Below, one piece after another: positions 21,769 through 60,050 of a stretch of 64,000 bases of DNA (position 1 is its first letter; every line of letters begins with the position of its first letter). The notes beneath the pieces are model-generated. The model saw only the letters and a list, made by a program, of their open reading frames with translations, had not been told where the DNA came from and searched no databases. The DNA comes from Chryseobacterium sp. SORGH_AS_0447 (lineage in GTDB: Bacteria; Bacteroidota; Bacteroidia; Flavobacteriales; Weeksellaceae): assembly GCF_030818695.1 (NCBI RefSeq), contig NZ_JAUTAR010000001.1, positions 2,846,501 to 2,910,500 on the forward strand. The letters run 5' to 3'. Made by a program: the position numbers and the translations under genes.

Positions 21769-21796
21769 AATTATTCTGGAAATAATTCTATACAAA

Positions 21797-21825
21797 AAGG
21801 CAGTTCGGAGAGAACTGCCTTCTTC
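21797..21825 (+). terminator. Rho-independent terminator after rpe
   Basis: AAGGCAGTTC and GAACTGCCTT with a 5-base loop, then CTTCTTTG. Confidence 0.8.
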
Positions 21826-21833
21826 TTTGTGAA

Positions 21834-21862
21834 AATTTGAGCCTATAATGGTTATTAGTTTT
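21834..21862 (+). repeat. Degenerate copy of the 40-base micro-unit repeat
   Basis: AATTTGAG (21834-21841), 6 bases, then ATGGTTATTAGTTTT (21848-21862). Both blocks occur in the same order in the identical copies at 22702 and 59827, where 5 bases separate them. The short frame is not kept here, and a weak AT-rich hairpin follows. The remaining DNA to 22096 holds nothing recognised. Confidence 0.45.
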
Positions 21863-22096
21863 AGAAAACTTTAATGCTTAAATTTTCCTTTTGTTCTAAT
21901 GCTGATGTAAAGATGAGAATTAATCCGCAGAAACATATCCGTATAAATACTGAAAATGAATTTACGTATTTCTACGTAGTACCACATTTAAATAAAATCT
22001 TTAACTTAAAGCTCTTATTCAACAAGCGGGGATAAACAACTGTAATACAGGGAATATTTGTATACATATAAAATTAATCCATCATATAAAAACAAA

Positions 22097-22145: not shown

Positions 22146-22562
22146 TTAGAAAATTTCTCTTCCTGAAAAATGGAATTGTGCTTCGATAAGCGCGTTCTCA
22201 TCAGAATCTGAACCGTGAACGGCATTTTCTCCGATGCTTCTTGCAAACATTTTTCTGATGGTACCTTCTGCAGCTTCCGCAGGGTTGGTAGAACCGATCA
22301 ATGTTCTGAAATCTTCAACTGCATTTTCTTTTTCAAGAACTGCCGCTACGATTGGTCCTGAACTCATGAAATCAACCAATTCTCCGTAGAATGGTCTTTC
22401 AGCGTGTACTTCATAGAATTTTTTTGCATCAGCTACCGTAAGCTGGGTAAGCTTTAATGCTTTAATTTTAAAACCTCCTTCTGCGATTTTACCTAATATA
22501 GCACCGATATGTCCGTCCGCAACTGCATCAGGCTTAATCATAGTGAATGTAATGTTAGACAT
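22146..22562 (-). CDS. ndk: Nucleoside diphosphate kinase
   Basis: 138 residues. Transfers the gamma phosphate of ATP to nucleoside diphosphates through a phospho-histidine; cytosolic. The catalytic His116 lies in [12 protein letters not shown]; the N-terminal [11 protein letters not shown] and [13 protein letters not shown] are family motifs, and the C-terminus ends in FSGREIF. Length is standard. Transcribed alone; a CAAAAATA box at 22586-22593 is a possible minus-strand -7 element, and a strong terminator follows. Confidence 0.97.
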
Positions 22563-22645
22563 AAATGTATATTTTTTTAATGGCGCAAAAATACAAAAAA
22601 ATCCTGTCTTTTTAATTTTAAAAATTTTTTAACATAAATATAACA

Positions 22646-22674
22646 TTTGTTAAGAAATTACGAACGAATCTTTG
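22646..22674 (+). promoter_or_regulatory. Probable promoter of the 22.7-kb micro-unit
   Basis: TTTG at 22646-22649 and AATCTTTG at 22667-22674, 17 bases apart, close to the Bacteroidota -33/-7 pattern (first base of the -7 box differs). It predicts a transcript start near 22681, 26 bases before the nine-codon frame. Confidence 0.45.
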
Positions 22675-22680
22675 GCACAG

Positions 22681-22760
22681 AAATTGTTACTACTATTACG
22701 ATTCTCATGTTTAATTTGAGTTTTCATGGTTATTAGTTTTTACCCAGCTTCGGCTGGGTT
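22681..22760 (+). ncRNA. Small terminated transcript with nine-codon frame, copy 1
   Basis: The 40 bases at 22702-22741 are identical to 59827-59866. They contain ATG (22707) to TAG (22734-22736), encoding M-F-N-L-S-F-H-G-Y. A terminator follows at once: CCCAGC-TTCG-GCTGGG and TTTTTT, then ATTGC, which is also shared by copy 2. The neighbours (ndk and rsgA) are both on the other strand, so this is not a leader of an adjacent gene. Whether it acts as RNA, as a micropeptide or both is unknown; no named RNA family was recognised. Confidence 0.5.
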
Positions 22761-23030
22761 TTTTATTGCGCAAAATCCCCAAATTTACCACCTAACCTTA
22801 AGATTTCGAAATAATTAAACAGCAGTTTAACAAATTCAGCTATATTATTTCACATTTAAAGAAGATAGAAAACGGAAAATGGTGAACTTAATAAATAATG
22901 ATATGAAAGAGACAGAAAGTAGGATAATATCGATATTATCAGAAAATATAGAGTGATATCTTGCCTGGATATCTAATTCTGTAAAAAAGATGTTCCATCA
23001 GTGACAGAACTTTCAATAATAAAGTATAGA

Positions 23031-23957
23031 TTATTTCTGAGAAGCCTCTTCCGCTTCTTCCATTAGTTTGATGTAAGTAGCATATCGGGAATGCTGTATT
23101 TCTCCCGTTTCCAGCCCTTCGATAACCGCGCATTTCGGCTCATTGATATGAAGGCAATTGTGGTATTTGCATTCTTCCCTTTTCTTAAATATTTCCGGGA
23201 AATAATGCTGCACTTCTTCTTTCTCGATATCGATCATAGCAAACTCACGTACCCCGGGGGTATCGATAACGTTGCCGCCAAAATCCCAAAAGTGCATCTG
23301 TGCAAAAGTAGTGGTATGTTTTCCTTTTAAATGCGTGTCGGAAATTTCTGAAGTTTTTAAGTTAAGTCCGGGCTGTAATGCATTGACCAAAGTAGATTTT
23401 CCGCAGCCGGAATGTCCGAAAAACACAGAGGTTTTATCCTGGAGAAGTGCTTTCAGCTGATCGAGATGCAATCCTGAATAAGAAGAAATTTCCAGAGAAC
23501 CGTATCCGATTTCATTATAGAGAAACTCCATATCCTTTACGATTTCTATTTCCTCTTCATCCAGAACATCCATTTTATTGAAAAGAATCAGGGGAGAAAT
23601 ATTGTAGGCTTCGCAGCACGCCAGAAACCGGTCTAGAAAGCCAAGAGAGGTCTCGGGATGCTTCAGAGTAAAGATGAAGCACGCGAGATCAATATTAGAA
23701 GCAATAATGTGCGCTTCTTTTGAAAGGTTAACGGATTTTCTGATGAGGTAATTCGTGCGCGGTTCTATCTTCGTGATCCATGCAATATCGTCTTGCTCCA
23801 GCTGAAATTCCACAAAATCCCCTACAGCAAGCGGATTGGTAAGCCGGGTTTTAATCAGTTTAAATTTCCCGCGGATTCTCGCCTCGAAAATTTTTCCGGT
23901 TTCCATTTCCAAAACCTGATACCAGCTTCCTGTAGATTTAATGATTTTTCCTTTCAT
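23031..23957 (-). CDS. rsgA: Ribosome small-subunit-dependent GTPase A
   Basis: 308 residues, a circularly permuted GTPase that assists late maturation of the 30S subunit. An N-terminal OB-fold (about 1-70) precedes the G domain in the permuted order: LFNKMD (G4) comes before the P-loop FFGHSGCGKSTLVNAL and DTPGVREF (G3). The C-terminal zinc site C-x4-C-x-H-x5-C is read in CKYHNCLHINEPKC. Length is normal. A CAAATATA box at 23972-23979 could be its -7 element. Confidence 0.96.
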   Translation of the reverse strand: MKGKIIKSTGSWYQVLEMETGKIFEARIRGKFKLIKTRLTNPLAVGDFVEFQLEQDDIAWITKIEPRTNYLIRKSVNLSKEAHIIASNIDLACFIFTLKHPETSLGFLDRFLACCEAYNISPLILFNKMDVLDEEEIEIVKDMEFLYNEIGYGSLEISSYSGLHLDQLKALLQDKTSVFFGHSGCGKSTLVNALQPGLNLKTSEISDTHLKGKHTTTFAQMHFWDFGGNVIDTPGVREFAMIDIEKEEVQHYFPEIFKKREECKYHNCLHINEPKCAVIEGLETGEIQHSRYATYIKLMEEAEEASQK

Positions 23958-59464: not shown

Positions 59465-59773
59465 AGAAACGTAAATCAATAATTAATTATTTTTTAGATC
59501 AGTTTCAAAAGTACTGATAATATTCTAAAAAAAGTCATTCTGTATCTTGCAGCAATAGATATACCATTATGTTAAATTCTCTAAAATTTTTATTAAAAAA
59601 AGTGATCAAAAAAAGTGGAGTTATCTTTATTCGGGCAATTGAGTGTTTAAATGTAAAAATTTAACCAATTATACTATTTTAAATTAAAATTTTCTTTTTA
59701 TAAAATTATTCACGGCACGGTGTTTGAATACAGATTGGTAACACTTTTTCACTTAAATATATTTTTCAAATTT

Positions 59774-59807
59774 AGCCCCCGTTTTTTGCGGGGGTTTGCT
59801 TTTTTGT
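59774..59807 (+). terminator. Orphan plus-strand terminator
   Basis: AGCCCCCG-TTTTTTG-CGGGGG then TTTGCTTTTTTG. No plus-strand gene precedes it; the nearest neighbour is the divergent kinase gene. It suggests a small transcript from within 59600-59775. Confidence 0.6.
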
Positions 59808-59810
59808 TTA

Positions 59811-59818
59811 TATATTTG
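59811..59818 (+). promoter_or_regulatory. -7 box (TATATTTG) of the 59.8-kb micro-unit
   Basis: Exact TAnnTTTG match, 14 bases before the nine-codon ATG at 59832. No -33 TTG at normal spacing was found. Confidence 0.45.
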
Positions 59819-59894
59819 CAGCGAATTTCTCATGTTTAATTTGAGTTTTCATGGTTATTAGTTTTTTAATCCCCGTCGCAAGTCGGGGATTTTT
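59819..59894 (+). ncRNA. Small terminated transcript with nine-codon frame, copy 2
   Basis: Same 40-base core as at 22702-22741, with ATG 59832 to TAG 59859-59861 (M-F-N-L-S-F-H-G-Y). It ends in the terminator ATCCCCG-TCGCAAGT-CGGGGAT with TTTTTTATTGC. The terminator stem differs from copy 1 while core and trailing ATTGC are the same, so selection or copying acts on the core. The next gene starts at 60051 with 150 bases between, too far for a tight leader. Confidence 0.5.
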
Positions 59895-60050
59895 TATTGC
59901 AATAATTACAACCATCCGTTTATTTTTGTCTTATTTCCCTACCACAGTTCTGAGAATTTTATTCATTAAAAATTTAATTTCATTTAAAATTCTACCCGGT
60001 CTGGCACAACTTGTGATATAGCAGAGATACACCATTAAAATCATAACACT

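Follow-up and report, generated by a model that had tools for sequence, protein, structure and literature searches.

The stretch of 64,000 bases analysed here (the window, from Chryseobacterium sp. SORGH_AS_0447) carries one 40-base element twice, at 22702–22741 and 59827–59866, and the question raised by the locus is what this repeated core could be. A sequence-only reading of the window had described the two cores as identical, and direct comparison within the window bears this out: there is no mismatch, and the match ends at the next base, position 41 being unlike. That reading offered a small RNA, a micropeptide, a decoy or attenuator RNA and a mobile repeat as explanations, and proposed a search of this and related genomes.

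The search shows that the core is not a random pair. The genome (4,374,394 bases in one contig) holds five copies in total, one with a shortened loop. A 20-base piece of the core matches exactly at four places and at no further place with up to three mismatches; the fifth, variant copy (G000:1268619), found with the core's 3′ portion as query, lies 446 bases beyond one of the four exact copies and lacks two bases between CTCA and TGAG. In a 296-genome sample of the order, a 27-base core (up to three mismatches) is present in 48 of 49 family genomes versus none of 247 genomes from other families, and its control has no match in any of the 296. Of 148 family genomes, 103 contain a strict core pattern, at one to five copies each, and they represent 23 of 33 genera; the control gives no match. 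Scanning species genomes for an exact 32-base match yields at least 119 stretches, and the 80 matches listed come mostly from Chryseobacterium, and also from Kaistella, Epilithonimonas, Bergeyella and Cloacibacterium. An early family survey with 20 bases and three mismatches (142 of 148) provides no counts here, since in many genomes its reversed control gave about as many matches. Two sequences in tandem at G000:3935933–3935969 (L269, L270), TGGTTATTAATTTTT and TGGTTATTAGTTTAT, nearly match the core's 3′ part and are separated by 7 bases.

The surroundings of the core resemble those of a transcription unit (Table 1). As the sequence-only reading had it, a GC hairpin with a T-tract follows the core directly and is unlike between the copies (ACCCAGCttcgGCTGGGT in copy 1, AATCCCCGtcgcaagtCGGGGATT in copy 2), and the neighbours of copy 1, ndk and rsgA (23031–23957), both lie on the minus strand. 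The −33/−7 boxes proposed for copy 1 form no clear pair, and TGGCAC-N5-TTGT, in the layout of a sigma54 −24/−12 promoter, is found instead. The ATTGC noted after the T-tract is indeed common to the two window copies, but it differs in other copies and is no feature of the family.

Table 1. Predicted features of the two core loci and of the ndk region (window coordinates)
Feature	Position	Strand	Remarks
sigma54-type promoter, copy 1	22673–22687	+	−24 TGGCAC 22673–22678, N5, −12 TTGT 22684–22687
Predicted sRNA copy 1, ~66 nt	22699–22764	+	start from −24/−12 spacing, end from T-tract
Conserved core, CTCA-loop-TGAG, then TTTTCATGGTTATTAGTTTTT	22704–22741	+	TTTTCATGGTTATTAGTTTTT antisense to start-codon region
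Intrinsic terminator, copy 1	22742–22764	+	
sigmaA-type −7 box TATATTTG, copy 2	59811–59818	+	
Predicted sRNA copy 2, ~73 nt	59823–59895	+	core 59829–59866 same, terminator different
Predicted sponge RNA gene	21776–21901	−	downstream of ndk and ndk's own terminator; covariance model R1
Sponge pairing segment 1	21849–21863	−	complementary to TGGTTATTAGTTTT of core
Sponge pairing segment 2, CTCAAATT	21834–21841	−	complementary to AATTTGAG of core
Sponge terminator, GGCAG...CTGCC-TTTTT	21794–21819	−	
Paired motif TACGTAGAAATACG / AGTATTTATACGGAT, candidate regulator site	21937–21978	−	upstream of sponge; 28-sequence alignment
ndk	22146–22562	−	PF00334; between sponge and sRNA copy 1

The promoter-like boxes fall into classes. 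Among 160 distinct copies (excluding those less than 160 bases from the upstream or less than 80 bases from the downstream end of their locus), 76, window copy 1 included, have a TGG[CT][AG][CT]-N5-TTG[CT] box upstream (class A), and the distance from TGG to CTCA is 31 bases in 70 of these 76. Another 44 have a TGGCAC-like box without a −12 match, and 33, window copy 2 included, have a sigmaA −7 box TAnnTTTG whose G lies 7–11 bases from CTCA; 7 fit no promoter class, some of them standing beside tRNA-like sequence. In the genome of the window, which encodes one sigma54 gene (PF04552), copy 1 is the only one of five copies with the full −24/−12 pattern.

CTCA lies just past the predicted start in the three main promoter classes, and the core therefore probably forms the transcript's 5′ end. 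Its presence in 160 of 160 copies is partly built in, since the scan pattern starts with TCATG and CTCA was accepted anywhere within 75 bases; in copies fetched with patterns lacking CTCA, it stands directly 5′ of the loop in 49 of 49. A relaxed definition, which required CTCA, TGAG and TGGTTATTAGTTTT, gives 179 copies with loops of 5–9 bases and linkers of 2–8 bases, and TGAG is kept in the 5- to 9-base loop variants (the search pattern itself demanded CTCA and TGAG). The predicted fold of copy 1 consists of a weak 5′ stem and the terminator (z −3.5). For four RNA forms of this genome, minimum-energy folding gives the terminator in all four and the 5′ stem in three, and leaves the core mostly unpaired. 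The variation in the relaxed set fits such a model, in which a weak 5′ stem (CUCA/UGAG) would be followed by an unpaired segment and the terminator. Comparative evidence supports the small-RNA proposal: the element occurs in many species, each copy viewed has a terminator and promoter-like boxes, and the sequence at the predicted 5′ end is fixed. The core looks like the 5′ end of a small regulatory RNA that is multicopy in these bacteria.

Directly 5′ of copy 2 there is a second conserved small-RNA-like unit (59713–59805, plus strand), made up of a sigma54-like CGGCAC-N4-TTTG, AACACTTTTTCACTTAAATATATTTTTCAAA and a C-rich/G-rich hairpin. Similar units occur at four more loci (L030, L089, L095, L097), each right before an sRNA copy of the same class.

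Could the core instead be translated? The proposed micropeptide (M-F-N-L-S-F-H-G-Y) would be encoded by a nine-codon gene ending in the terminator, and its frame ATG-TTT-AAT-TTG-AGT-TTT-CAT-GGT-TAT-TAG stays open, via DNA identity, in 165 of 180 copies. The other 15 break it, by stops, frameshift or start losses: 1- and 2-base deletions (TTTAATTGAG, TTTATTGAG) introduce a stop or shift the frame, and CTCATG is replaced by CTCATA in one copy. None of the 15 variants is synonymous (the search pattern itself fixed most codons), and conservation extends beyond the frame on both sides. We reject the micropeptide, whose probability we put close to nil.

A mobile repeat or the remnant of an integrative element is scarcely more probable. 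It would agree with the copies at L037 and L053, which by eye adjoin sequence resembling a tRNA 3′ end (ARAGORN finds no whole tRNA beside either), and with the copy at L047, 45 bases after an intact tRNA-Cys. However, the synteny of class A, the class of copy 1, is fixed, with 46 of 48 copies beside ndk versus 1 of 54 other copies; copy numbers stay at one to five per positive genome; the classes have no shared flanks as far as viewed; and the core copies lack the shared ends at varied sites of REP- or MITE-type elements. The proximity of the copies at L037, L053 and L047 to tRNA or tRNA-like sequence might point to release by tRNA processing or to old integration sites.

Another conserved RNA gene is predicted on the far side of ndk from copy 1. 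Complements of the core other than the standard sRNA sequence number 35 in 59 genomes versus 3 reversed, and 31 versus 0 with a second pattern; some of them are sRNA variants themselves (e.g. L332, L334, L339, L348). One element away from start codons recurs: AAAAACTAATAACCA, 6–7 unmatched bases, CTCAAATT and then a GGCAG...CTGCC terminator. In the window, ndk is flanked by this element on the minus strand and by sRNA copy 1 on the plus strand, 0.9 kb apart. Judged by its sequence, the ndk-side RNA is probably a sponge of the core RNA. The role of decoy or attenuator had been suggested for the core itself, and this does not hold, because the core runs straight into the terminator and the genes on either side are encoded on the opposite strand; the decoy-like RNA is a separate one, directed against the core. 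Two other stretches with a terminator and the 15-base core complement AAAAACTAATAACCA (L309 ~1500 and L333 ~1500) are possible further sponges. The small-RNA-like unit 5′ of copy 2 was also considered as a second sponge and was set aside at a predicted pairing of only −10.6 to −13.9 kcal/mol.

The sponge set comprises 28 sequences collected by a pattern that holds part of segment 1, and covariance model R1 was trained on 26 of them (two were omitted). The window sponge, itself a training member, scores 100.9 bits (E 9e-18 in the window, 6e-16 in its own genome). At E 0.01, R1 matches 81 of 148 family genomes, that is, 20 of 20 of the same genus and 61 of 128 others; 18 of the 20 have E values of 3.6e-6 or lower, and the 61 matches outside the genus, all at 4.5e-5 or worse, are in our view mostly background. 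In all 20 genus genomes the sponge match is on the strand opposite a class A sRNA copy, at a distance of ~0.7–4.7 kb, and ndk adjoins this copy in 20 of 20; in two of them (G130 and G133) the R1 score alone does not stand out.

The window sponge is predicted to pair with most of the core at −28.3 kcal/mol, and net binding after unfolding costs is −23.4 kcal/mol with sRNA 1 and −22.5 kcal/mol with sRNA 2. Pairing in R1 hits is partly built in because R1 contains the pairing segments, and with this reservation 19 of the 20 syntenic sponges pair at −22.8 to −32.1 kcal/mol (0–3 of 100 shuffled cores as good), the one in G133 being weak (−19.1 kcal/mol, 11 of 100 as good). The half formed by segment 2, which played no part in choosing the 28 sequences, averages −11.1 versus −5.1 ± 1.3 kcal/mol for shuffled seeds, none of 200 reaching the same value. 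In G130, a further hit lies outside the syntenic place (L446) and pairs poorly (−15.7). Outside the genus six R1 hits were scored: L443, L448 and L449 pair at −22.1 to −23.0, and L444, L445 and L450 do not; L448 (G012) lies in synteny, 2.2 kb from an sRNA copy. At five loci (L434, L437, L438, L439, L442) the sponge has changed to TATAACCA...GACTT and pairing is retained. A motif pair, CGTAnAAATACT and AGTATTTnTACGGAT, is conserved 5′ of the sponge, which may therefore be under its own regulation.

Pairing is symmetrical, so the roles might also be reversed, with the ndk-side RNA as the true regulator and the core RNAs as multicopy sponges for it, and the conserved motif pair upstream of the ndk-side RNA would suit this arrangement. 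We regard it as improbable: the core RNAs are spread more widely (103 of 148 family genomes, 23 of 33 genera), whereas R1 hits better than E 4e-5 are confined to the genus of the window, and the core is antisense to mRNA leaders, which the sponge, as the core's complement, is not.

The reverse complement of the core, AAAAACTAATAACCATGAAAACTCAAATTAAACATGAG, resembles a flavobacterial translation start, AAAAACTAATAACC-ATG-AAAACTCAAATTAAACATGAG, which suggests where the core RNA might act. Complements were counted in 1,363 start regions (667 from stretches of the window genome, the window and two more loci, and 696 from fetched loci). Those of at least 12 bases occur in 15 regions versus 4.0 ± 4.6 for shuffled cores (37 of 1,000 shuffles as high), and those of at least 13 bases in 9 versus 1.3 ± 2.1 (15 of 1,000); there is no clear excess of 9- or 10-base complements in the 1,363 starts, 546 and 226 of 1,000 shuffles being as high. 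Relative to shuffled cores, complements of the core are in general only modestly enriched at start codons. A ranking of the 667 start regions, a sample of one genome, by duplex energy was too noisy for naming targets. Four of its 40 strongest predicted duplexes are at start regions of a single locus (L221, G000:400001–420000), where there is an ADP-ribose-related gene run including a PARG-linked protein; further genes there are presumably macrodomain-like, ADP-ribosylglycohydrolase-like and DUF4291-like.

The enrichment hits led to one gene family, which encodes membrane proteins of RDD type (PF06271). It belongs to a folB-DUF4403-RDD group; 169 loci were searched, the group faces the sRNA in 28, and eight of these were mapped in detail. 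For 41 distinct RDD leaders, the mean length of the longest complement is 11.2 bases versus 7.3 ± 0.6 (maximum 10.1) for 300 shuffled cores, and 31 of the 41 have at least 10 complementary bases (mean 2.5 and highest 25 for shuffled cores). A complement of this length is present in 11 of 328 matched A-rich leaders, 0 of 47 DUF4403 leaders and 0 of 18 folB leaders. In 24 of the 31 RDD leaders the match begins 11–23 bases 5′ of the start codon, and in 5 it spans the start codon. The RDD mRNA is the best-supported candidate target of the core RNA. The folB-linked form of RDD was not found in the window genome, which has a distant match only (E 4.6e-6); about 1 kb from this match, the leader of a gene for a membrane protein of DUF4013 type contains a perfect 15-base site.

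These complements have another possible explanation. Some RNAs, such as those that bind CsrA or RNA polymerase, act by protein binding; the core could likewise be mainly a protein site, its complements at starts being a by-product of A-rich leaders. A seed usually needs fewer fixed bases than 38, and the near invariance of 38 bases across the family, together with the modest general enrichment at starts, speaks for a protein site, as does the binding of FopS sRNAs by RbpB in Bacteroides, at least as excerpts of that report describe it (PMC11697453). We nevertheless consider a protein site unlikely to be the main function: sponge pairing survives sequence change, the RDD leaders far exceed the matched leaders, and predicted folds leave the core largely unpaired.

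Two further candidate targets of a core RNA acting by base pairing, a TonB-dependent receptor and a PARG-linked gene (a longer homologue of which bears a microbial PARG domain), are partly supported and weaker than RDD. Among the 30 best-scoring loci of each, fetched by protein similarity, 19 and 12, respectively, have at least 10 complementary bases. Over the whole start region both exceed all 300 shuffles, a score that owes much to the codons ATGAAAAC; over the leader only, 21 and 2 of 300 shuffles are as good. For the sRNA with four mRNA candidates, the predicted gain is 17.9 to 22.3 kcal/mol after unfolding costs.

Taken together, we think it likely that the core is the 5′ seed of trans-acting sRNAs of ~65–75 nt, antisense to translation starts and accompanied by a sponge on the ndk side. 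One 38-base seed would be made at several loci, from a sigma54-type promoter beside ndk and from sigmaA-type and other promoters elsewhere, and different signals could thus feed one RNA activity. The core RNA would pair with selected mRNAs at their leaders and start codons, RDD being the best case, and probably block ribosome entry, and the ndk-side RNA, with two seed-complementary segments and a small mismatched loop between them, would probably sequester the core RNA. The analysis shows conservation of sequence, synteny and predicted pairing; transcription, the RNA ends, the direction of regulation, a repressive effect of the pairing and what each promoter contributes are what we infer here from the DNA. 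Few trans-acting sRNAs have been worked out in Bacteroidota, which, according to excerpts of one study, initiate translation without Shine-Dalgarno pairing (PMC9723704). A family-wide seed that mimics start-region antisense could serve as a handle on sRNA repression of translation in this phylum, and the conserved linked sponge makes the circuit open to testing by single deletions.

No description of the core RNA, its sequence or its partner was found in the open-licence literature searched, and three known systems invite comparison. Rfp18 of Flavobacterium psychrophilum is likewise a conserved flavobacterial trans-acting sRNA, but it is predicted to be strongly structured and to pair via its third stem-loop, and is described as conserved in its own genus (PMC9723704). 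Excerpts of the same study place sigma54 promoters of a related organism before chaperone, envelope-stress and gliding genes (PMC9723704), and these sites offer a lead to the conditions under which copy 1 would be produced. FopS and GibS of Bacteroides thetaiotaomicron are also sRNAs of Bacteroidota, and they pair near the start codons of mRNAs through a conserved 5′ seed, as far as the excerpted reports go (PMC11697453, PMC7366714). FopS is a paralogous family, and the core RNAs similarly are multicopy with a conserved unstructured 5′ seed, a likeness and not a homology; predicted pairing of the core to start regions is strong in RDD leaders and modest in general. The core RNAs differ in length (~66–73 nt versus ~145 nt for GibS), in copy number (5 versus 14), in having sigma54-type and other promoters beside sigmaA and in having a dedicated antisense partner RNA. 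Membership is claimed neither in FopS/GibS nor in Qrr.

The qrr genes are sigma54-dependent, and Rfam includes a Qrr model. The window has no Rfam match at the gathering cut-off (searched up to E 10, it gives only matches far below the cut-offs), and for want of a match at gathering score the core RNA is not classed as Qrr. Qrr1–4 and the sponge QrrX of Vibrio cholerae, in the excerpted account, are nonetheless similar in plan, with sibling sRNAs that share one pairing core and one sponge against it (PMC9732341). The sigma54-type promoter of such a system is found in class A only (76 of 160 copies), and a conserved antisense RNA is predicted to pair with the shared core. The differences are the phylum and the position of the sponge, which here is separated by ndk from one neighbouring sRNA copy. 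We are evenly divided on whether these parts form a family-wide hub, in which a seed almost perfectly antisense to the flavobacterial start consensus would be made from loci under different sigma factors and checked by a separately regulated sponge beside the ndk-linked copy; if they do, the hub would be a Bacteroidota counterpart of Qrr/QrrX of independent origin.
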